This document shows, in pieces, positions 6,492 to 64,000 of a stretch of DNA of 64,000 nt. The notes under the pieces are model-generated. The model did no database searches, had not been told where the DNA came from, and saw nothing but the letters and a program-made list of their open reading frames with translations. A program made the position numbers and the translations under genes. Origin of the DNA: Kitasatospora azatica KCTC 9699 (GTDB lineage: Bacteria; Actinomycetota; Actinomycetes; Streptomycetales; Streptomycetaceae). Position 1 is the first letter of the stretch, and every line of letters begins with the position of its first letter. Location: the NCBI RefSeq assembly GCF_000744785.1, contig NZ_JQMO01000001.1, forward strand, positions 1 through 64,000, given 5' to 3'.

Positions 6492-8819
6492 TCAGCCGGT
6501 GACGGTCTCGGCGTGCCGGTGGAGCGCGTCCAGGAGCGCGGTCTGGTGGTCGGTCAGCTTCCCATCGGTGCGGGCCTTGTCCTGCTTGCGCAGCCAGGTG
6601 CCGGGCCGGAACGCCGCGTCGTCGCCGAGGCCGGTGCGGTTCGCCGGGCCATCGAGGATGCCGCCGGCGGCGAGGTAGGCGAGCAGGCGGCGGTACGACC
6701 TGTTCCAGTCCGGCTCCAGGCGCCACAGCTCGTCCAACGCGTCCAGCTTCGCGACCTGGTCCTTGGTCAGGTTGTCGGCCTTGCGCTGGCGGCGCATCCA
6801 CGCCCCCACCGCGTAGTCGTCCAGCTTCGCGGTCGCCGGGATCGCCAGGTGGCCGTACTGTCGCTGGAACGCGGCGGCGTAGGCGGCGCCGCGCTCCCAG
6901 GCGTTGGCGTTCTTCGACCAGATCATGCCGAGCGCGTCCAGCTCGCTGACGCGGGCCGGGTCGAGCAGGCCCTGGCCGCCCAGGTGGCGCTGGCGGGCGA
7001 GCCAGGAGATCAGCTCGACGTGCTTCGCCTTGTCGGTCGGGTCGAGGTGGCCGTGCTCGATGTGGAAGACCGCCGCGACCGCGTGCATCCGCTGCCACTC
7101 GGCAGCCCGCGGGTTGAACGCCCGCAGCTTCACGGTCTGCAGGATCCGCGCCGCGTGCTGCCGGGCGTTGATCCGCAGCCACTCGATCGGCGACTCCACC
7201 GGGGCCGGCTGCTGCTCGGCCTCCCCCGCTTCGGGGGCCGCGCTCTCGGCAGGCTTGGCCGCGGTGGTGTGTGCGGTGCCCTGCGAGCGGCAGGCGCGCA
7301 GTTCGGTGATCCGGCCGACCACCCGGGCGTCGTGGGCCGCGAGGGCTCGCAGGACCCGCCAGATGGTGCGGAAGGAGCTGGCTTCGATCTCGGCGTCGGC
7401 CTCGGCCTTCACGGCTTCGCCGGCGTCGTGGACCTCGGACGGGTCCGCGGCGGCGGTGTCGTCGCCGACCACGGGCGTCGGGAGGTAGACCGGGATGATG
7501 ACCCAGGACACCTTGCCCTGCCGGTAGGACTGGCGCAGCGCACGGCCGACTGCCTGGACGATGTCGATGACGCTCGACTTCGGGTCCGCGAAGCACACCG
7601 AATCCACAGCTTGGACGTCGATGCCTTCAGACAGGAGCCGAGCGTTGCAGAGGATCCCGCACTCCTCGCCGTCCTCGCCGGTGTGGGCCTTGAACTCCGT
7701 GAACGCGGCCCGGCGGTCGCCCAGGCGGTCGGTGCCGGCCACCGCCTTCGCCCAGATCCGCTCCGGGCGTTCCGCGTCGGGCAGCAGTTCCGCGGCCTCC
7801 AGCAGGGTGCCGGCGAACTCCCGCGCCGAGGTCACCCGGGAGTGGAAGGTGATGACCCTGCGCAGGTCAAGGTCGGCGATCGCGCGCAGCACCGCGATCT
7901 GCAGGGCCAGGCGCAGCAGTTCCTCATTGGTGCGCTGGGATCGCAGGTCGGCGACGGCGGGGAGGTTGAGGAGGTCCCGCAGGTCTTCGTCGGTGACCAC
8001 CGGGACGAGGACGCGGTAGTCGGCGAGGTAGCCGTGCTCGATCCCCTGGCCGAGGGTCCAGGTGAACACGGTTTTGCCGTAGATGGTTTCGTCGTCCATC
8101 GAGCAGATGACAGTGCCCTCGGCGACATCCACCACCTCGCGCGGCACCCGGGCCTCATCCACGATCCGCGGAGTGGCGGTGAAGTACAGCCGGCGTACGG
8201 CGGGAACCTGGTCGTCGGTGTGCACGGCCGCCCACGCCTTGCCGTCCGAGCCGGCCGTGCGGTGCGCCTCATCGACCACCACCAGGTCCCAGGCCAGGAG
8301 GCCGCACAACTGATGCGCCTGGACGATGCGCTCCAGCGAGGCATAGGTGGCGTACACGGTCACCGGCTCACCCGGTTCCGCGGCCTGGACCAAGTCGGCG
8401 ATCCGGGCGGCCTGCGTGGACACCACGGCCTCGATGCGCCCGCCGGCCTCCGCGCTCTCCAAAGCCTCCTGGCGCGAGCACGCCGCCACCGCCAGGCCCC
8501 GTCGACCGCCCTTCGTGGACCAGGCTTCGGCGGTCTGCTCCAGCAACTCGATCGTCGGCACCAACACCAGCACCCGCCCCCGCGCGGCCAGGCGCCGGGA
8601 GCAGTTGGCGGCGATGAGGGTCTTCCCGGAACCAGTCGCGGCCACAATGGTCGCCCGGCCGCCGTCCTTCACCTCACGCACCGCGGCCGCGACCGCGTCC
8701 TTCTGGAACCCGTGCAGCGGCAGGACGCCATCGCGGGGCCGCGACGGGGCGGGTAGGCCGGGCTCCATCACGCGCGACGCCACCGCGACGGCGGTCGGCT
8801 CGGTGGTCGTGGTGTCCAC
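6492..8819 (-). CDS. DEAH-box helicase with helicase-associated repeats (775 aa)
   Basis: Superfamily 2 helicase. Residues 30-70 carry the Q-motif-like FQKDAVAAAV and Walker A (AATGSGKTLIAA); Walker B is DEAHRT near residue 190, motif III FTATPR, and the second RecA domain ends in QAVGRALRQSYR. From about residue 540 there are tryptophan-rich helicase-associated repeats (INARQHAARILQTV, WERGAAYAAAFQRQYGHL, WNRSYRRLLAYL), a layout known from actinobacterial plasmid and defence-island helicases. GTG start with AAGGAG ten bases upstream. A truncated relative lies at 13.4-14.7 kb. Substrate unknown. Confidence 0.9.
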   Translation of the reverse strand: MDTTTTEPTAVAVASRVMEPGLPAPSRPRDGVLPLHGFQKDAVAAAVREVKDGGRATIVAATGSGKTLIAANCSRRLAARGRVLVLVPTIELLEQTAEAWSTKGGRRGLAVAACSRQEALESAEAGGRIEAVVSTQAARIADLVQAAEPGEPVTVYATYASLERIVQAHQLCGLLAWDLVVVDEAHRTAGSDGKAWAAVHTDDQVPAVRRLYFTATPRIVDEARVPREVVDVAEGTVICSMDDETIYGKTVFTWTLGQGIEHGYLADYRVLVPVVTDEDLRDLLNLPAVADLRSQRTNEELLRLALQIAVLRAIADLDLRRVITFHSRVTSAREFAGTLLEAAELLPDAERPERIWAKAVAGTDRLGDRRAAFTEFKAHTGEDGEECGILCNARLLSEGIDVQAVDSVCFADPKSSVIDIVQAVGRALRQSYRQGKVSWVIIPVYLPTPVVGDDTAAADPSEVHDAGEAVKAEADAEIEASSFRTIWRVLRALAAHDARVVGRITELRACRSQGTAHTTAAKPAESAAPEAGEAEQQPAPVESPIEWLRINARQHAARILQTVKLRAFNPRAAEWQRMHAVAAVFHIEHGHLDPTDKAKHVELISWLARQRHLGGQGLLDPARVSELDALGMIWSKNANAWERGAAYAAAFQRQYGHLAIPATAKLDDYAVGAWMRRQRKADNLTKDQVAKLDALDELWRLEPDWNRSYRRLLAYLAAGGILDGPANRTGLGDDAAFRPGTWLRKQDKARTDGKLTDHQTALLDALHRHAETVTG

Positions 8820-13438: not shown

Positions 13439-14668
13439 CTAGATAACGTCGATGCCTTCCGTCAGGAGGCGACTGTTGCAGAGGATGCCGCACTCCTCGC
13501 CGTCGTCGCCGGTGTGGGCCTTGAAGTCGGCGAACGCGGCGCGGCGGTCCTTGAGGCGGTCGGTGCCGGCCACCGCCTTCGCCCAGATCCGCTCCGGGCG
13601 CTCCGCGTCCTCCAGCAGCTGGGAGGCGTCCAGCAGGGTGTTCGCGAACTCGCGGGCCGCCGTGACCCGGGAGTGGAAGGTGATGACCCGGCGCAGGCCG
13701 AGGTCGGCGACCGCGCGCAGCACCGCGATCTGCAGCGCCAGGCGCAGCAGCTCCTCGTTGCTGCGCTGGGAGCGCAGGTCCGCGATGGCCGGGAGGTTGA
13801 GCAGCTCGCGCAGGTCCTCGTCCGTGACCACCGGCACCAGGACGCGGTAGTCGGCGAGGTAGCCGTGCTCGATCCCCTGTCCGAGGGTCCAGGTGAAACA
13901 GACCTTGCCGTAGATCTCCTGCGAGTCCATGGAGCAGAGCGCGGGCAGCTTCTCGCCGTCGGCGAGGTCGGCCAGGCCGTCCTTCGCGCGCCGGTCGTCG
14001 GCGATCCGCGGGGTCGCGGTGAAGTAGACGCGGCGCTTCGCGGGCACGTCCGCGTCATTGTGGATCGCGGCCCAGGCCTTGCCCTCCGCGCCGGCGGTGC
14101 GGTGCGCCTCGTCGATGACCACCAGGTCCCACTCGGGCAGGCCGAAGTCGTGGTGGGCCTGGACGATGCGCTCCAGTGAGGCGTAGGTCGCGTACACGGT
14201 CACCGGCTCGCCGGCCTTCTCCTTGGCGACCAGGTCGGCGATCCGCGGGGCCTGCGTGGTCACCCGGGCATGGACCCGGCCTCCGGCCTCCGCGCTCTCC
14301 AAAGCCTCATCCCGCGAACAGGCCGCGACAGCCAGCCCCCGGCGACCGCCCCGCAACGACCACGCCTCCGCGGTCTGCTCCAGCAACTCGATCGTCGGCA
14401 CCAGCACCAACACCCGGCCCTTCGCCGCCACGCGCCGGGCGCAGCCAGCCGCAATCAGCGTCTTGCCGGAGCCGGTCGCGGCGACCACCGTGGCGCGGCC
14501 GCCGTCCTTCACCTCGCGCACCGCAGCCGCCACCGCGTCCTTCTGGAACCAGTGCAGCGGCAGCGGGTTCACCGCGGCGGTGCCGGACGGCTGCGCCGGG
14601 ACCGGCTGCCCGGCTGCGGCGCGGAACGCGGCCGGCACGTCGGCCTCGGTGGCGGTGGTGGTCTCCAC
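13439..14668 (-). pseudogene. Second DEAH helicase, truncated
   Basis: Closely related to the intact helicase (same FQKDAVAAAVREVKDGGRA, AATGSGKTLIAA, DEAHRTAGAEGKAWAA). GTG start with AAGGAG at the same spacing. The reading frame ends right after LLTEGIDV, in the middle of the second RecA domain, exactly where the Tn554-like element begins. Motif VI (QAVGRALRQ) and all helicase-associated repeats are missing, so the product cannot be an active helicase. The missing 3' part is not found on the other side of the element in simple order. Confidence 0.85.
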
Positions 14669-31886: not shown

Positions 31887-32603
31887 ATGGCACACGTGCA
31901 TGTTCTGCTGAACCAGAAAGGCGGCGTCGGCAAGTCGACGCTGACCGTCAACCTCGCTGCGGTGACCGCCGAGGTGATAGGGCGTAAGGCAGGGGAGAAA
32001 CCACCGGTCCTCGCGGTGTCCGTCGACCCGCAGGGATCGACGGCGTGGTGGTCGAACCGGGTCGGCGACGAGCTCCCGTTCCTGTTCACCCAGGCTCACA
32101 ACGACCTCGGCTCGCTGCGCAAGCTGCGAGGCATCCAGTCGGTCAAGCACATCTTCGTCGACACTCCCGGCTGGCTGGACCTGTCCGACGACGACACCAC
32201 CGCCGACCCGCTGGGTGACGGCAAGGCCGCTGACATCCTGCGGGCTGTGCTCGACAACGCCGACAGCGTGATCCTGCCGATCGAGCCGGAGGCGCTCAGC
32301 TTCAAGCCGACCGTACGGACGGTGAAGCAGATCATCGAGCCGCGAGGCCTGCCGTACACCGTCGTCATCAACAACTGGGACCCGCGCGACGGCGAGGTCG
32401 ATCTGAAGCAGACCCAGGAGTTCGTGGAGAAGAACGGGTTCCCGCTCGCCAAGACGGTGGTGCGGCACTACAAGATCCATGCCCGTGCCGCCGCGGAGGG
32501 ACTGGTTGTCACGCAGTACAAGCCGAACCGGGCCGCGTTCGAGGCCCGCGAGGACTTCTTCCGCCTGGCGCTCGAGCTGAACCTGAGCGGGGGCAACCGA
32601 TGA
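31887..32603 (+). CDS. parA: ParA-type partition ATPase (238 aa)
   Basis: Deviant Walker A KGGVGKST at residues 11-18, Walker A' region SVDPQGSTAWW and Walker B IFVDTPGW. Small ParA without an N-terminal regulatory HTH (type Ib-like size). It forms ATP-dependent patches on the nucleoid that move the ParB-bound replicon. CGGAG lies upstream of the ATG. The stop overlaps the parB start (ATGA), so the two are co-translated. Confidence 0.92.
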   Translation: MAHVHVLLNQKGGVGKSTLTVNLAAVTAEVIGRKAGEKPPVLAVSVDPQGSTAWWSNRVGDELPFLFTQAHNDLGSLRKLRGIQSVKHIFVDTPGWLDLSDDDTTADPLGDGKAADILRAVLDNADSVILPIEPEALSFKPTVRTVKQIIEPRGLPYTVVINNWDPRDGEVDLKQTQEFVEKNGFPLAKTVVRHYKIHARAAAEGLVVTQYKPNRAAFEAREDFFRLALELNLSGGNR

Positions 32604-33640
32604 GCCGCCGAGTGAACCTCGCCGACATGCTCGACGGCGAGCCGCTGGACGAACCCACCCAGGCCACGCCGCGCCCTCCAGTCATCAGTGTGTCCCTGAT
32701 CGCGCCCAACCCGGACAACCCGCGTGGCGCCGTCGATCTGGACGACGACGATTTCCACGAGCTCGTCCTCAGCGTGCAGGAGGTGGGCATCATCAGCCCC
32801 CTCACCGTGTGCACGACCGAAGCCTTCCTTCGGCACAACCCCGCCCACGCCGCCGCCCTCCGCGCCAGCACCTACGTCGTCGTCGCCGGGCACCGCCGCC
32901 TGGCGGCCGCACAGGAGGCGTGGCTGAAGGAAGTGCCGGCCTATGTGAACGATTCCGCCGCGGAAGACCCGCTGGTGTGGGCTGTGGCGGAGAACCTCCT
33001 GCGAGTGGGGCTGAATCCCATTCAGGAGGCCCAGGCGCTGCGGGTGCTCACCGATCCGCCCCCCGCCGGACGGGGTATGGCTCAGACCAAGGCCGCTCGT
33101 GGAATCGGCAAGACCCAGGGCTTCGTCTCGCAGCGCATCGCCCTTCTGAACCTCGACCCGGCTCTTCAGGCGAAGATCGCCTCCGGCGAGCTCGGGCTCA
33201 AGGCCGCACGGTCCTACGTCTCACTCCCCCGTGAGCAGCAGATGGCCGCCTATGAGGCGCAGGCCTCCGGCTATTACCCGGTAATGGATTCAGCGCGGGC
33301 ACAGCCCTCCGAGAAGGTCGTGGCAGCCGAACCTGTGGCCGCCGCTTCGGTGCAGCCTGACCCCGAGACCTATTACCCGGTAATGGAGAGCGAGCCTTCG
33401 CCGGTACCAGATGCCCCCGCGCCGGCGCCCACGCAGGCCGCGGCTCAGCGCGCAGCGGGCGCGACCAAGGTCGCTGACGCCGCGGGTGTACCGGAGCCCC
33501 GGACAGCTCAGGGCACCAATGCGGTACGGGATGTCGACTGGCACGACGTCCCGGCGTTCGCCGACGCCATCCGCCGCGTCCTGACCCAGGATCAGATAGG
33601 AGAACTCGCCGAAGCGCTCATCAACAACCTCGGCGGCTGA
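32600..33640 (+). CDS. parB: ParB-type partition protein (346 aa)
   Basis: ParB/Srx N-domain with VSLIAPNPDNPRGAVD, then VQEVGIISPLTV and VVVAGHRRLAAAQEAW (the CTP-binding GxRR box), AVAENLLRVGLNPIQEAQAL, and an HTH domain (AARGIGKTQGFVSQRIALL). Residues 210-300 are a Pro/Ala-rich linker with two YYPVM motifs whose DNA is a 13-bp palindrome; the C-terminus (VPAFADAIRRVLTQDQIGEL) is a dimer-type helix. It should bind centromere sites, most likely these palindromes. Confidence 0.92.
   Translation: MSRRVNLADMLDGEPLDEPTQATPRPPVISVSLIAPNPDNPRGAVDLDDDDFHELVLSVQEVGIISPLTVCTTEAFLRHNPAHAAALRASTYVVVAGHRRLAAAQEAWLKEVPAYVNDSAAEDPLVWAVAENLLRVGLNPIQEAQALRVLTDPPPAGRGMAQTKAARGIGKTQGFVSQRIALLNLDPALQAKIASGELGLKAARSYVSLPREQQMAAYEAQASGYYPVMDSARAQPSEKVVAAEPVAAASVQPDPETYYPVMESEPSPVPDAPAPAPTQAAAQRAAGATKVADAAGVPEPRTAQGTNAVRDVDWHDVPAFADAIRRVLTQDQIGELAEALINNLGG
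33273..33285. promoter_or_regulatory. parS-like palindrome 1 (inside parB)
   Basis: ATTACCCGGTAAT, encoding part of a YYPVM motif. Same site as at 33372, and reverse complement of the core at 33644. Candidate ParB-binding centromere site. Confidence 0.6.
33372..33384. promoter_or_regulatory. parS-like palindrome 2 (inside parB)
   Basis: ATTACCCGGTAAT again, 99 bases from the first copy, in the second YYPVM motif. The 99-base distance is a multiple of three, which keeps the reading frame. Confidence 0.6.
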
Positions 33641-38319: not shown

Positions 38320-38520
38320 GGGAGCCGCGCCCCCGGCAAGGGGCCAGCTCCCGCGGTCCAGAAAAGGTGGACATGATGCAGCGTACCCGTACGCGCTCCG
38401 AAGCACACAAGCGGCACCCCGCCGTGGACGCGATCCGTTGTCGGTCGCTCCGGCGGGGTGCCGTCGTCGTGTGCGCGGCCGTACCTCTCCCCGCGAGGGG
38501 GTTGCTGAGGTGACGTAGCC
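38320..38520. other. Highly structured region (three more hairpins)
   Basis: GGGAGC/GCTCCC with an inner CCCC/GGGG stem (38320-38352), CGGCACCCCGCCG/CGGCGGGGTGCCG with a 26-base loop (38412-38463), and CCCC/GGGG near 38490. A short frame from the ATGs near 38373 runs between them. It could be an attenuator-like leader, a non-coding RNA or part of the replication origin. Confidence 0.5.
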
Positions 38521-39136
38521 GACCGCGGGCGGCTCCTGACCGGTTCCACCCGGCCTACACCGCCCTGGCCGCTCCCTGGTCTTGGTGTTCCACCACCAGA
38601 CCTCCGCGGCCTCACTTCACTGCTCTTCGAGTTCCACCTCGTCGAGCGAAGGCCCGATCTCCGGCGCCAACCGGTTGATCAGGCAATTTCCAGGTTCTCC
38701 CCAGAACCAAAAAGCACCGAGGGCGCCTTTTGCGTGCCCACCTGTCTCCAGGAGGCTTTGTCATTTTGCAGCAGCCCTGCCGGGGCTGCCAGACCTGCCG
38801 TGCTCGTGGTGTCGCCTCCGACTCCGCACTGCCGGCCGTTCTTGGCACTCCTGCCGCCTGTTCCGTACGTCCGGATTCCGTGTGCTGCCTGGCCAGTCAC
38901 GCCCTCGCCAACCGCGGTTGCCGCCCTGTCGCGTCGACGCGCCGTCAGCATGGCGTGACGCAAATCACTCGTTCGGGTGCGGCTGCAGTTGCATGCCAGC
39001 GCACGTTCTCGGACGCGGTGATGCGTATGCGGTCCGCTCCGAGGGCGCACCGCGCGCTGGTCCGGCGGTCCGTCTTCGTCTTCTCGGCTGGCTCCTCGCT
39101 CCGCAGTGCTTCTGACCGCCGGTACCGGAGCGGGCG
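38521..39136. other. Non-coding stretch before the rep operon (origin candidate)
   Basis: Six hundred bases with no convincing gene. Pyrimidine-rich on the plus strand in the middle. No iterons or DnaA boxes could be recognised by eye. Its place next to rep and dciA makes it the best origin candidate in the window. Confidence 0.35.
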
Positions 39137-40513
39137 ATGAACGCGGCCGAGGCGCTGCTGGAGCGGCACGGGGGACACCCGGCTTCGGCTGTCCTGGTCG
39201 TTCCCGGCCAGCGGGTGGGGATGGCCGGCGGCGACGTCGTGGTGAAGAGGGCTGGGTGGGTGCCGCTGGAGCACCAGATGGTGTCGGGGACGGCCGGGCG
39301 GATCGCGCTGGACGGGTACTCGTGGATGCAGGCGGTCCACTGGGTACACGGTGCCGGCCTCTACGCGCCGACGCACGGCCCGAAGTTCGGCGAGACGACG
39401 CTCAAGCTCGCCGAGGTCCTCTCCCAGCTGACACCGTGTCGCCCGAGCATCGCGCACCTGATGCGTGTGCTGAAGGCAAGCAAGCGGACCGTGCAGTACC
39501 ACCGGGACATCCTCCAGGCGACCGGCCTGCTGGCCTGGCGCTCGGTCGGTACCCGGCTGCCGATGACGCCCGGTCAGCAGCGGGTCACCTGCCTAGCGTC
39601 CGAGTACGAGCGCCTCATCCCGGCCAGCTACGACCAGGCGCTGGGCATCCGCACTGCGGGCGAGGGCATCGGGCGGCGGATGACCGGCATCTCGGAGGAG
39701 GGCCGGGGCCTGATCGCGGAGCTCGGGAAGCTCGCGGTGAAGAAGCTGCGGCGCACCCGTCGTCACACGGGCACCGGACGGACCGTCAGCACCTCGCGTT
39801 GCACCCCAATGGAGGGTGGTACCACTGACTGCGTGAGCTCCTCCCTCGTGGGTGGTGGAAAAACTACGGGCGGGGCCCGTGTCGAGAAGTCAGCCACCAG
39901 GAAGAAGCGGGCCTCGCGGCCGACTAGGCAGCGGCGGCGCACGGTGCTCGGGCAGGTCGTCACGGCGGCGATGATGGTGGCCGGCGACCAGCTGGCCCGG
40001 GTCGCGTACCGGCGGGTTCCGTGGGTGCGGCAGGCTTCGCACGACCAGCTGCGGTGGGTCCTCAACGACCTCGCCGAGCGAGGCTGGAGCCAGGACCAGG
40101 TCATGGCCTGGCTGGGCGAGATCGCAGGTCAGTACGGGTGCGCCGGGGTGCTGTGGCGCCCGGAGCGGCCGCACTCGCTGATCGCGCACGCCCTGCGCGG
40201 GGACGTCGAGCAGGAGCAGCACGACCAGGCGGTGGCCGAGCGGGCCGCCGTCCGGGTCGAGGACACCTCCGTGGTCGCCGTCCAGGAACTGGCCGGCGAG
40301 CTGGAGTTCATGGCCGACCTGTTCGGCACGGGCGTCACCACCGCGCCCGCGACCAGGCAGGACCTGCTCGAAGCTGCTTACCTGCCCGCGGCCGCGCACG
40401 CCCAGATGGAAGCCGCCGGCGACCAAGCCTTCGAGCGCTTCGGCGCCGACCTGGTCGCCCGGTACGCCCACCTTGCCGCCAGCCCCAACGTCCAGCTCGG
40501 AGTGACCCGATGA
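39137..40513 (+). CDS. Plasmid replication-initiator-like winged-helix protein (458 aa)
   Basis: Residues 85-140 (TLKLAEVLSQLTPCRPSIAH, LMRVLKASKRTVQYHRDILQ) form a winged HTH like those in replication or partition proteins. A basic linker follows (RKKRASRPTRQRRRTVLGQV). The C-terminal half (VRQASHDQLRWVLNDLAERG, EIAGQYGCAGVLWRPERPHS) is common in Streptomyces plasmid proteins of this class. No catalytic motif is visible. Its stop overlaps the start of the DciA-like gene (ATGA), so the two are coupled. Replication initiation is inferred from this pairing; a transcription regulator is the alternative. Confidence 0.6.
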   Translation: MNAAEALLERHGGHPASAVLVVPGQRVGMAGGDVVVKRAGWVPLEHQMVSGTAGRIALDGYSWMQAVHWVHGAGLYAPTHGPKFGETTLKLAEVLSQLTPCRPSIAHLMRVLKASKRTVQYHRDILQATGLLAWRSVGTRLPMTPGQQRVTCLASEYERLIPASYDQALGIRTAGEGIGRRMTGISEEGRGLIAELGKLAVKKLRRTRRHTGTGRTVSTSRCTPMEGGTTDCVSSSLVGGGKTTGGARVEKSATRKKRASRPTRQRRRTVLGQVVTAAMMVAGDQLARVAYRRVPWVRQASHDQLRWVLNDLAERGWSQDQVMAWLGEIAGQYGCAGVLWRPERPHSLIAHALRGDVEQEQHDQAVAERAAVRVEDTSVVAVQELAGELEFMADLFGTGVTTAPATRQDLLEAAYLPAAAHAQMEAAGDQAFERFGADLVARYAHLAASPNVQLGVTR

Positions 40514-41352
40514 CCGACGGCTCCCGATTCGCCCAGGAGCCCGGCGGCGCCGACCTGGCCCGCACCGCGCTGCGCACCGCCCGCCGCACCGCTCGCCTCA
40601 ACGGCAACGTGCCGTTGAGGAAGACCGCGCCGACCCGCCAGCAGATTGCCCGCGCCGGCCGGGACGCCCGCGAGCCTTCCACCCTGGCCGCCGTCGTGCC
40701 CGCCATGGCCGCAGCCCAGGGCTGGGCCCTCGGCACCGCCCAGGGCAGCATGCGCAACAACTGGGCCCAACTCGTCGGCGCCGAGGAAGCGCTCCACTGG
40801 TTCCCGGCCGGCTTCACCGCCGACACCCGAACCCTGCGCATCACCTGCGACTCCCCGGCCTGGGCCACCAAGCTGCGCCTGGAGCAGCGCCAGCTCCTCG
40901 CCAAGCTCAACGGCGCCCGACCCGACACCGTCCGCGCCATCGAGATCCGCGTCGGCGCCGCCACCGCCAGCCCGACGCCCGACACCGAACCGGATACTCG
41001 ACCCGGCCGCCCGCGCGAGGACCAGGCCCCCGCCCCGGCGACGCGCCCGCTCGCCGACAGCGCCGCCTACCAGCAGCTGCGCCGGCAGATGCACGAGCAG
41101 GCCCGGATCAGGGAGGCCATGCTTGAGGAGGCCGCCGAGAAGGAGGAGATCATCCGCCGCAACTCCACCCTGCGCGAGCCCGAGGGAGCCCACCGGTCGG
41201 CGGTGGAGGACGAGCTGGCCGCCGCCGAGGTGGCCCACGCCCGCCGCAACCGCGACAGCCACCGCGCCGCCCTGGCCGTTGCCCGCGGCTACGCCGTCCC
41301 GCTGCGCGCCGCCCGCTCTCAGCAGTCGGCCGTTCTGACCGGTGCCGCATGA
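40510..41352 (+). CDS. DciA-like (DUF721) helicase-loader homologue (280 aa)
   Basis: Residues 10-150 follow the DUF721/DciA pattern: DLARTALRTARRTARLNG, then MRNNWAQLVGAEEALHWF, then RTLRITCDSPAWATKLRLEQ and RQLLAKLNGARPDTVRAIEI. DciA loads or activates the replicative helicase DnaB in most bacteria without DnaC; chromosomal copies are about 170-190 aa. Here a 110-residue acidic, coiled-coil C-terminus is added (LRRQMHEQARIREAMLEEAA). A plasmid copy behind a rep-like gene would recruit the host helicase to the plasmid origin. Confidence 0.75.
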   Translation: MTDGSRFAQEPGGADLARTALRTARRTARLNGNVPLRKTAPTRQQIARAGRDAREPSTLAAVVPAMAAAQGWALGTAQGSMRNNWAQLVGAEEALHWFPAGFTADTRTLRITCDSPAWATKLRLEQRQLLAKLNGARPDTVRAIEIRVGAATASPTPDTEPDTRPGRPREDQAPAPATRPLADSAAYQQLRRQMHEQARIREAMLEEAAEKEEIIRRNSTLREPEGAHRSAVEDELAAAEVAHARRNRDSHRAALAVARGYAVPLRAARSQQSAVLTGAA

Positions 41353-41465
41353 CCCAGACCGTCCCACCACCCGCCCGCCGACCGCTACCGTCGAATCTGC
41401 GGCCCGCTACCGAGGCGGCCGCCACCACCGAGGAGGACCAGGTGACCACCCAGCCCGACCACTAG
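41349..41465 (+). CDS. Small third gene of the rep operon (38 aa)
   Basis: MTQTVPPPARRPLPSNLRPA then TEAAATTEEDQVTTQPDH. It starts with an ATGA overlap with the dciA-like stop, the same coupling as between the first two genes. Proline-rich and acidic, probably unfolded. No homologue known. Confidence 0.5.
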   Translation: MTQTVPPPARRPLPSNLRPATEAAATTEEDQVTTQPDH

Positions 41466-62367: not shown

Positions 62368-63504
62368 TCATTGCGGCTGGCGGTACCTCTGGGGCCGGCA
62401 CTCCGGACAGGGACTCAGGGTCAGCAGGCCGTCGGCGTTGCGATGCTCACGGGTACGGGTGACCGGATCGCACTCGAGCGCACCGCAGTGCCCGTCGATC
62501 CGGTCCGCGGGTTGCGCCGGGCTCTGCTGGCGGCCGATGCGCGAAGGGCGCGATCCGTGCACCACCTCGTAGAGCGGCAGATTGGCGATCCGGTCCTTCT
62601 CGAGCACCCGGGCATAGTTGTTGATCTTGTATGGATTTCTCGTCAGTTGCTGCACGAGCTGACGGTCCAACAACCAGCCCTGCTCCGTGGCGGCTTCCAG
62701 CAGTGGCTGGCGCAGCCTCTTGGCCAGTTGGCGACCCGCGGACCACGGCGGTGGCAGCAACTGCAGGAAGCGCTCGGCCTGTACGAGGTCCTCTTCGCTG
62801 AAGCGCTGGTCGTCCTGCGGGGGTGGAGCGTGACGGGTGGTGAGGGGGTTGGGGGAGGAGGTAGTTACCTCCTCCGGGGGGTGTGGGGGGTGGACGGCAC
62901 CGTGCACGGTGTGAGCGTCCACGGTCCGACCTGCGGAAACACGCCCTCCACTGTGGCCGGTGTGACCGTGCGCGGTGTCACCGTGCACGGTGTGAGCGTC
63001 CACGGTCCGACCTGCGGAAACACGGTTACTGGCCGGTACCGCAGCCGGTGTCACCGTGAACGGTGTGACCTGAGATGATTCCGGAGAGTCACCAATCGGG
63101 CGCAAGGGGTCCGACGGCGTCCAGTCCGGGTTGAACACGGGACGCCGGTAGAGCTCGTAGGCGGCGGCGCCGAACTGCCCCCGTGCCCCGTGGGCCTGCT
63201 GGACCCTGCGCAGGAAGCCGGCCGCCACGAGCCGGCGAAACGAGGCCTGGACCGCGTCGCGCCCGATGAGGCCCCCGCCCTTCCCGTTGCTGTTGCGAAT
63301 GCCCTGAGCTCGCAGCGCGGCCAGCAAGGTGGTGATGGTCGGGGACTGGCCTCCCGCCACCATGAACATCAAGTGCAGCAGCACGACGATGTCCAACGGG
63401 TCCGGCAGCCCCGACCCGTAGACCATGTGCGCATGCACGGTCACCTCCGTCACCGGCTCACTGCCGGGCACCACCCGCGCCATGTCGGCGTCCGACGGGC
63501 TCAT
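62368..63504 (-). CDS. Winged-helix DNA-binding protein with internal repeats (378 aa)
   Basis: The N-terminal half (PLDIVVLLHLMFMVAGGQSP, LIGRDAVQASFRRLVAAGFL, RRVQQAHGARGQFGAAAYEL) is a winged helix like those of Streptomyces plasmid and phage replication or regulatory proteins. A linker holds two copies of RVSAGRTVDAHTVHG. The C-terminal part (LVQAERFLQLLPPPWSAGRQ, LEAATEQGWLLDRQLVQQLT) ends in a Cys-containing tail (CGALECDP, CPECRPQ). GGGAG precedes the ATG at 63504. Function unknown. Confidence 0.65.
   Translation of the reverse strand: MSPSDADMARVVPGSEPVTEVTVHAHMVYGSGLPDPLDIVVLLHLMFMVAGGQSPTITTLLAALRAQGIRNSNGKGGGLIGRDAVQASFRRLVAAGFLRRVQQAHGARGQFGAAAYELYRRPVFNPDWTPSDPLRPIGDSPESSQVTPFTVTPAAVPASNRVSAGRTVDAHTVHGDTAHGHTGHSGGRVSAGRTVDAHTVHGAVHPPHPPEEVTTSSPNPLTTRHAPPPQDDQRFSEEDLVQAERFLQLLPPPWSAGRQLAKRLRQPLLEAATEQGWLLDRQLVQQLTRNPYKINNYARVLEKDRIANLPLYEVVHGSRPSRIGRQQSPAQPADRIDGHCGALECDPVTRTREHRNADGLLTLSPCPECRPQRYRQPQ
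62898..63024. repeat. 46-bp direct repeat inside the winged-helix gene
   Basis: Two exact copies (62898-62943 and 62979-63024), start to start 81 bases, a multiple of three. Each contains CCGTGCACGG, an internal palindrome. GTGCACGGT-like units occur several more times between and after them, so the DNA may also act as a binding array. Confidence 0.85.
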
Positions 63505-64000
63505 CAGGTGGCTCCCGCAACCGCGCCCCCCGGACGGCTCTTCAGGGGACCTGGTGGCGCCTGCTCGCGCCCGGCGGGGGAGGAGGCGGGGCGGGAGCCC
63601 GCCGACGGGCTGGCTGGCCGGCCCGGCTCGTCGCGGCCGGTCGCGAAAGCTTCTGCTTCGCCGACGCGCCTGGCGCTCGGGGTGGTGGTGTCGAAACTCG
63701 TGGCGGCGGTGCGCAAGTTGCTCAAGCCCTTCCGCTGCGCTTCGGCCCCGGTCGGGATGAGATTGGGCCACACAGTGGCCGAACGGCGGCGCCACGTCAC
63801 AAACCGTGGTAACGCCTGATACCGTCGGAGCCGAAGTCAGCTTTATGCGAAAGCGCGGCGGCCCAAGTTTGGCGACTGGGGGCCGCTTCGCTGTCTTCAA
63901 TACCGTTTGTGTACTGCCTACCTTGGTTGGGACTCAGGCTATTCGTCGCTTGGAACCCTCAGGCAATTCCTTCTCCGTTGTCCGCTGGACGGCCCGAGCT
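63505..64000. other. Upstream region of the winged-helix gene, no clear gene
   Basis: Both strands are open up to about 63820, but the readings are Arg/Pro/Ser-rich. After 63830 the GC content drops. A GC-rich stem with arms GCGGCCC and GGGCCGC lies near 63862-63893. Nothing else could be assigned before the window ends. Confidence 0.4.

Follow-up and report, generated by a model that had tools for sequence, protein, structure and literature searches.

A Rep-like gene coupled to a plasmid-borne dciA in Kitasatospora azatica: a candidate replicon core

The Rep-like and DciA proteins of contig C1

The stretch of DNA analysed here (the window) comprises the first 64 kb of contig C1 (107,804 base pairs, bp) of Kitasatospora azatica KCTC 9699, the genome of which is 8.27 Mb in three contigs. 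It carries a Rep-like gene encoding a winged-helix protein, followed directly by a plasmid-borne dciA, a pair that we consider as a candidate replicon core. The two open reading frames (ORFs; 39137-40513 and 40510-41352, both on the + strand) share an ATGA overlap, so the coupling of the Rep-like gene to dciA claimed in the original prediction is seen in the ORF coordinates. That prediction also described a three-gene operon: all three ORFs overlap by ATGA and two of the genes are supported, but the third, of 38 amino acids (aa), is not. The features of the pair are as follows:

39137-40513, + strand: Rep-like gene for a winged-helix protein of 458 aa, a candidate initiator of replication
39266-39763, + strand: predicted winged-helix domain, Rep-like residues 44-209 (AlphaFold model)
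40349-40489, + strand: Rep-like C-terminal segment, approximately residues 405-451; recurring module with profile matches elsewhere
40510-41352, + strand: plasmid dciA (DUF721), 280 aa; PF05258 match, model superposes on known DciA
40546-40599, + strand: N-terminal helix, DciA residues 13-30 (AlphaFold model); resembles the chromosomal DciA helix
40684-40947, + strand: DUF721/DciA domain (PF05258 match)
40954-41349, + strand: DciA C-terminal extension with two long predicted helices (tail lengths, AlphaFold model)
41349-41465, + strand: 38-aa ORF, starting in the ATGA overlap with the dciA end; probably not a gene

The claim that the second gene encodes a DciA homologue is borne out by a profile search: residues 59-146 match PF05258 with 56.7 bits (cut-off 24) and E=3e-15. 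An AlphaFold model of the protein (mean predicted local distance difference test [pLDDT] 76, predicted template modelling score [pTM] 0.39) places the domain at residues 59-148 and helices at 13-30, 185-217 and 225-258, the last two forming the long C-terminal extension that had been predicted. The two best structural matches are both DciA proteins: residues 54-158 superpose on the DciA of Vibrio cholerae as seen in its DnaB complex (8a3v; Z 9.9, root-mean-square deviation [rmsd] 4.9, 99 aligned) and residues 65-152 on Deinococcus DciA (7ykm; Z 9.6, rmsd 3.1, 79 aligned). Plasmid DciA is thus modelled with a DciA-type KH-like fold; a search against PDB sequences gave no match at E 0.1. The N-terminal helix contains a GxDLAR motif, which is kept in 62 plasmid DciA sequences and is also present in the chromosomal DciA of this genome.

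The window DciA is 72% identical to its Kitasatospora aureofaciens counterpart. Nonsynonymous and synonymous substitution values (dN/dS) are 0.08/0.17 for the core and 0.34/0.45 for the tail; dN is the lower value in both parts, and the tail changes faster. The C-terminal tail of V. cholerae DciA is reported to fold as a helix hairpin on DnaB (PMC9912922) and, by analogy, the plasmid DciA tail may serve DnaB binding.

At the DNA level, the resemblance to K. aureofaciens stops within approximately 10 bp of the dciA stop codon. The 38-aa ORF that begins there has no family match in a profile search, and no similar same-frame peptide was seen by eye in four related loci, which have open frames at this place. 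Judged from these comparisons, it is probably neither conserved nor a gene.

The Rep-like protein has a single match in the whole genome and no Pfam or NCBIfam match at E<=1. Its AlphaFold model (pLDDT 76, pTM 0.47) consists of a winged helix (residues 44-209), a low-confidence linker (211-262) and a helical part (270-456); the winged-helix protein that was expected beside DciA is therefore present in the model. Compared with its K. aureofaciens homologue, the protein is 82% identical, with dN/dS values of 0.11/0.23. Its C-terminal segment is also found at the end of a 718-aa protein, different in all other parts, whose gene immediately precedes dciA on NZ_CP108049 (hhalign E=2.3e-8, hmmsearch E=2.3e-14). 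A small ORF of NZ_CP003988 (L005:6533-7000), approximately 600 bp downstream of dciA, holds the segment as well, and these two are the only matches outside Rep-family ORFs in the loci scanned. As a guess, the segment could be a docking site for DciA or DnaB.

Linkage and lineage of the gene pair

Rep-like loci were gathered by alignment to the Rep-like protein and not to DciA, yielding 39 loci from viral contigs and 55 from genome contigs, and six of the 94 were dropped as truncated. Among the 88 loci with at least 1 kb of downstream sequence, 74 have dciA on the same strand at most 1.2 kb downstream of the Rep-like gene (72 of 86 distinct loci when two duplicate pairs are removed), an adjacency beyond chance. 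The DciA profile used combines the window protein with 16 further plasmid DciAs and the chromosomal one; some of the profile plasmids are also among the counted loci (for example pSAM1). Both parA and parB are found downstream on the same strand in 27 of the 79 loci with at least 5 kb of downstream sequence.

In PLSDB, Rep relatives occur on 138 plasmids with the window query and 148 with the pSAM1 query, and DciA relatives on 23 and 201, respectively. The carriers are almost all Streptomyces or Kitasatospora, with single records from Arthrobacter, Nocardia, Tsukamurella and Embleya. When the best 60 of the 201 DciA records are compared with the best 60 of the 148 Rep records, 29 accessions appear in both, and in each of these inspection by eye places dciA downstream on the same strand within approximately 1.1 kb. 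All 18 named records chosen from the PLSDB matches have a DciA-type gene, which follows the Rep-like gene except in L004, L018 and L021, where the gene in front of it has no BLAST match to the window Rep (for L004, no kinship to the Rep family was seen). A small gene separates the Rep-like gene from dciA in L003, L006, L016, L022 and L236. The pair is carried by linear plasmids (NZ_CP020568, NZ_CP108193, pFRL2 and pFRL3), by circular plasmids (pSAM1, pCQ3 and NZ_CP046906) and by the phage-plasmid pZL12. The survey of the pair proposed earlier thus finds it on linear and circular Streptomycetaceae plasmids and on pZL12: as far as sequence comparison can tell, the Rep-DciA module is widespread and not peculiar to this plasmid.

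Two of these records have unusual arrangements. In K. aureofaciens NZ_CP020568, the gene between rep and dciA (L003:9338-9979) encodes a partial DciA-like domain together with an SLOG-type (YAcAr) match below its cut-off. NZ_CP115451 (L018) has three PF05258 matches and two dciA genes behind different upstream genes, the second of which is followed by dnaB.

The K. azatica genome contains two DciA matches: one on contig C3 (93 bits) and the plasmid copy on C1 (60 bits). Location between recF and gyrB is usual for dciA in Actinobacteria (PMC5109545), and the C3 copy, by our reading, lies in this stretch; the plasmid copy does not, being placed behind the Rep-like gene. A DciA match is present in 57 of 60 genomes sampled from the class. 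Multiple matches are confined to the present genome and a second member of its family, in the latter with stop codons. In the genus sample, the plasmid DciA profile matches at least twice in 22 of 61 genomes, some of these matches being fragments.

A tree of 137 DciA rows (123 unique, not independent) over 155 columns splits 89 plasmid-type rows from 48 rows taken as chromosomal, with a Shimodaira-Hasegawa-like (SH-like) support of 0.97. The plasmid-type rows comprise 62 Rep-linked loci including the window, 16 named records and 11 genus genomes; the remainder are 19 from the genus and 29 from the class. The assignment of the 11 genus-genome rows to the plasmid type and of all but one of the 19 other genus rows to the chromosomal type followed from whether the match spans the tail, and the recF-gyrB position was examined for this genome, the other chromosomal rows being taken as such. 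The number of residues following the DUF721 domain is 83-137 in the 62 plasmid rows, compared with 24 in the 19 genus rows and 23-25 in the 29 class rows, the last having been picked independently of tail length. Recent capture of the host dciA is disfavoured by the split between plasmid-type and chromosomal-type rows, and on this phylogenetic evidence plasmid DciA is a separate lineage with its own long tail. Rep and DciA distances across 56 loci are correlated (Mantel r=0.47, reached by none of 2000 permutations), as would also be expected from shared plasmid ancestry alone.

Candidate replicon function and its alternatives

We consider it somewhat better than an even bet that the Rep-like gene and plasmid dciA form a replicon core in which Rep binds the origin and DciA brings DnaB. 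Such a replicon would probably be of theta type, and the pair would be needed for replication. Using its winged helix, the Rep-like protein would bind the plasmid origin, which may be the non-coding DNA that precedes its own gene, and would open or mark it; its C-terminal region would then engage the plasmid's own DciA. DciA, in turn, would bind the DnaB ring via its DUF721 domain, N-terminal helix and tail and help its loading, the ring being that of the host or, where a plasmid dnaB exists, that of the plasmid. Plasmid DciA would thereby play at the plasmid origin the role of chromosomal DciA at oriC. A broader reading, which we hold more tentatively and at slightly less than even chance, is that of an old, self-contained and mobile DciA family in Streptomycetaceae plasmids and phage-plasmids, with a plasmid-specific tail and exchangeable winged-helix initiators joined via a transferable C-terminal docking segment: a loader without an ATPase domain would bring the helicase to the plasmid origin.

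Comparison of the winged helix using VIA-align ranks Fur/PerR-type regulators first (4mtd: Z 8.3, rmsd 2.5, 86 aligned), followed by the DnaD N-domain (2v79: Z 6.8, rmsd 3.5, 96 aligned) and 4pql and 4pt7 ('DNA binding protein' and 'initiator'; Z 6.8 and 6.3); the DnaD and initiator N-domain scores (Z 6.3-6.8) are under the level that the tool deems telling. An N-terminal winged helix is shared with initiators of the RepA_N, DnaD and lambda O kind but, as Fur-type regulators score as well or better, it cannot tell an initiator from a regulator. Fold searches with the Rep-like protein gave no match at E<=0.001 in PDB or BFVD, and PDB sequences returned solely weak matches to ArsR-type and similar regulators. 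The PHROG family 'replication initiation O-like' matches three of the four Rep-family proteins scanned, weakly (window E=0.004, pZL12 0.0015, L050 1.7e-4; none for L045). RP-C matches are likewise weak, occurring in 7 of 73 Rep-like relatives (best E=1.3e-4), and general helix-turn-helix (HTH) families reach more members (HTH_20 in 49 of 73).

One alternative explanation is that the pair is a regulatory or transfer operon, consisting of a winged-helix transcription regulator and a partner that keeps the DUF721 fold. Fur, PerR, MarR and ArsR proteins do head the winged-helix matches, and database names for the Rep-like and dciA genes include 'helix-turn-helix', 'transcriptional regulator' and, once, 'Tra3-like'. 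We nevertheless regard this explanation as improbable: the DciA core is conserved with dN < dS, dnaB lies directly behind dciA in two records, the Rep family has weak phage-initiator matches and parAB are neighbours in the 27 loci mentioned above.

The viral-contig collection suggests a further alternative: plasmid DciA may act on the host, diverting or blocking the loading of host DnaB to the benefit of the plasmid or, in phage-plasmids, of a lytic phase. The 39 loci from this collection, many on contigs of approximately 85-95 kb, and the phage record pZL12 would fit such a role, as would an N-terminal helix common to plasmid and host DciA combined with a differing tail. The fixed place behind the Rep-like gene argues instead for service at the plasmid origin, and the linear plasmids NZ_CP020568 and NZ_CP108193 carry plasmid DciA too; we give this alternative very little credence.

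With respect to helicase supply for the proposed Rep-DciA replicon, 15 named dciA-bearing records were searched for the DnaB family: 12 have no match and pSAM1 has a weak one. In L004 and L018, where a different type of gene precedes dciA, a complete dnaB follows it immediately. A Rep-family gene is present in 12 of the named records: besides pSAM1 with its weak match, the other 11 lack any DnaB-family match, so most would rely on the DnaB of the host. On the linear plasmid NZ_CP108193 (70.8 kb), no further gene is named as replication initiation or replicative helicase in the PLSDB gene tables, which are incomplete and leave many genes unnamed. The window contig is an exception to this dependence, having a DnaB gene of its own. 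The other features of C1 that bear on its replication are as follows:

31887-32603, + strand: parA (Pfam CbiA match); parA and parB lie approximately 5.5 kb upstream of the Rep-like gene
32600-33640, + strand: parB (Pfam ParB_N and HTH_ParB matches)
38412-38463, unstranded: inverted repeat (arms of 13 bp, perfect) that precedes rep, where the sequence is shared with K. aureofaciens
38543-38638, unstranded: GTTCCACC in three copies at 44-bp spacing; weak candidate for iterons
62368-63900, - strand: Rep1-like gene; 54-57% identity to the NZ_CP108209 gene that immediately precedes dnaB
C1 83007-84722, + strand, beyond the window: complete DnaB-type helicase gene with both Pfam domains

The C1 DnaB is 42% identical to chromosomal DnaB, and the Rep1-like gene, for which no kinship to the Rep family was seen, has matches on 75 PLSDB plasmids. 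Homologues of these two genes are adjacent on the Kitasatospora indigofera plasmid NZ_CP108209, and on sequence grounds the set could be the working replicon of C1. Were C1 to replicate in this way, it would be a fused plasmid, with the Rep-DciA pair as its second or silent replicon. The complete DnaB, the resemblance of the Rep1-like protein to that of NZ_CP108209 and its frequency in PLSDB speak for this possibility, which we consider unlikely: the two genes lie approximately 19 kb apart on opposite strands of C1, where the unit is broken up. Furthermore, at the sensitivity used, Rep1-like is absent from all 15 named dciA-bearing records and DciA from all three Rep1-DnaB records, so each probably serves without the other, although exceptions exist.

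Upstream of rep, the inverted repeat is possibly a regulatory or origin element. As a set of iterons, the GTTCCACC array is unconvincing, because it does not recur in the two nearest relatives (two TTCCAC are present in K. aureofaciens). A possible repeat array of another kind, 18 copies of a 9-mer within 1.3 kb, lies downstream of dciA in L071.

Several observations weigh against a Rep-DciA replicon. The dciA gene is missing beside the Rep homologue in 14 of the 88 loci, in one of which (L073) DciA is instead upstream or on the opposite strand; regulators head both the structural and the sequence matches of the winged helix; and the pZL12 DciA homologue is annotated 'Tra3-like'. Among the matches listed, NZ_CP109510 and NZ_CP058980 have both Rep1-like and plasmid DciA. 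No convincing or conserved iteron array was found upstream in the window or related loci, and GC skew in 10 replicons does not point consistently to the Rep-DciA locus. The origin clone of pFRL2 was published as a '2.2-kb HindIII fragment' (PMC3212956); the HindIII sites in the pFRL2 sequence yield no fragment of 1.9-2.5 kb and place Rep-DciA on one of 46 kb, so the clone is not placeable and neither supports nor refutes the locus. This plasmid also has 'replication initiation protein' genes near its right end and a 'replication-relaxation family' gene. Finally, C1 carries the second candidate set, Rep1-like plus DnaB. The suggestion of a replicon with its own helicase-loading adaptor therefore stands in part: the DUF721 match, the DciA fold, the winged-helix linkage and the separate lineage favour it, and the second replication-like set on C1 does not.

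The view of C1 as a linear plasmid gained no support, as no terminal inverted repeats were found at the contig ends and its first bases fall within transposase-like sequence. Near the left end is a gene for a DEAD-type helicase with HA domains (6492-8819, - strand), part of which is repeated at 13446-14563 with 81% DNA identity; it might belong to the type known from linear ends (PMC4487206).

Relation to known systems

An initiator and its own loader in one operon are known from phage lambda O-P and from other initiators with P- or DnaC-type loaders; in contrast to these sets, the loader here belongs to the DciA family. An initiator with its own helicase loader is thus known as a kind, and the DciA-type loader is the new element. 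The pair also resembles the rep1-rep2 replicons of Streptomyces (pSLA2 and SCP1) in having a plasmid replication gene beside a helicase-related gene. In those replicons, rep2 is a helicase gene (PMC13152386), whereas the second gene here is the loader homologue dciA and the DnaB gene is approximately 42 kb away. A close arrangement is that of pZL12, in which Rep-like gp020, small gp019 and DciA-type gp018 (PF05258 E=3.9e-8) are followed by ParA and ParB, although the homologues are distant (Rep identity 29%).

With chromosomal actinobacterial DciA (encoded between recF and gyrB; Rv0004 in Mycobacterium tuberculosis), the plasmid protein shares DUF721, the GxDLAR helix and the DciA-type fold. 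It differs in being plasmid-borne, in its separate lineage, in its tail of 83-137 residues and in its winged-helix neighbour. The dciA gene has been described as almost exclusively genomic, with one mobile instance in Streptomyces (Brezellec et al. 2016, PMC5109545); this is a single instance, and the parts of that paper drawn on here describe no partner gene or replicon. We found no description of the module in the literature on Streptomyces plasmids, DciA/DUF721 and plasmid helicase loaders, a body that does not include the pZL12 (2010) and linear-plasmid (2009) replication papers. The original impression of an undescribed replication system is upheld for the module as far as this literature reaches, qualified by the mobile Streptomyces dciA noted in 2016.

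Chromosomal dciA is essential where tested, which makes DciA genetics hard, and the mechanism by which DciA loads DnaB is still being worked out (PMC5109545, PMC5720831). If the Rep-DciA pair is a replicon core, it would provide a mobile setting for exchanging and testing loader, initiator and origin, and it would alter the published view of dciA as almost exclusively genomic. It would also hint at how replication begins on large Streptomyces plasmids that lack their own helicase gene: the recurrence of the pair on many related plasmids suggests a widespread, little-studied mode of replication start.

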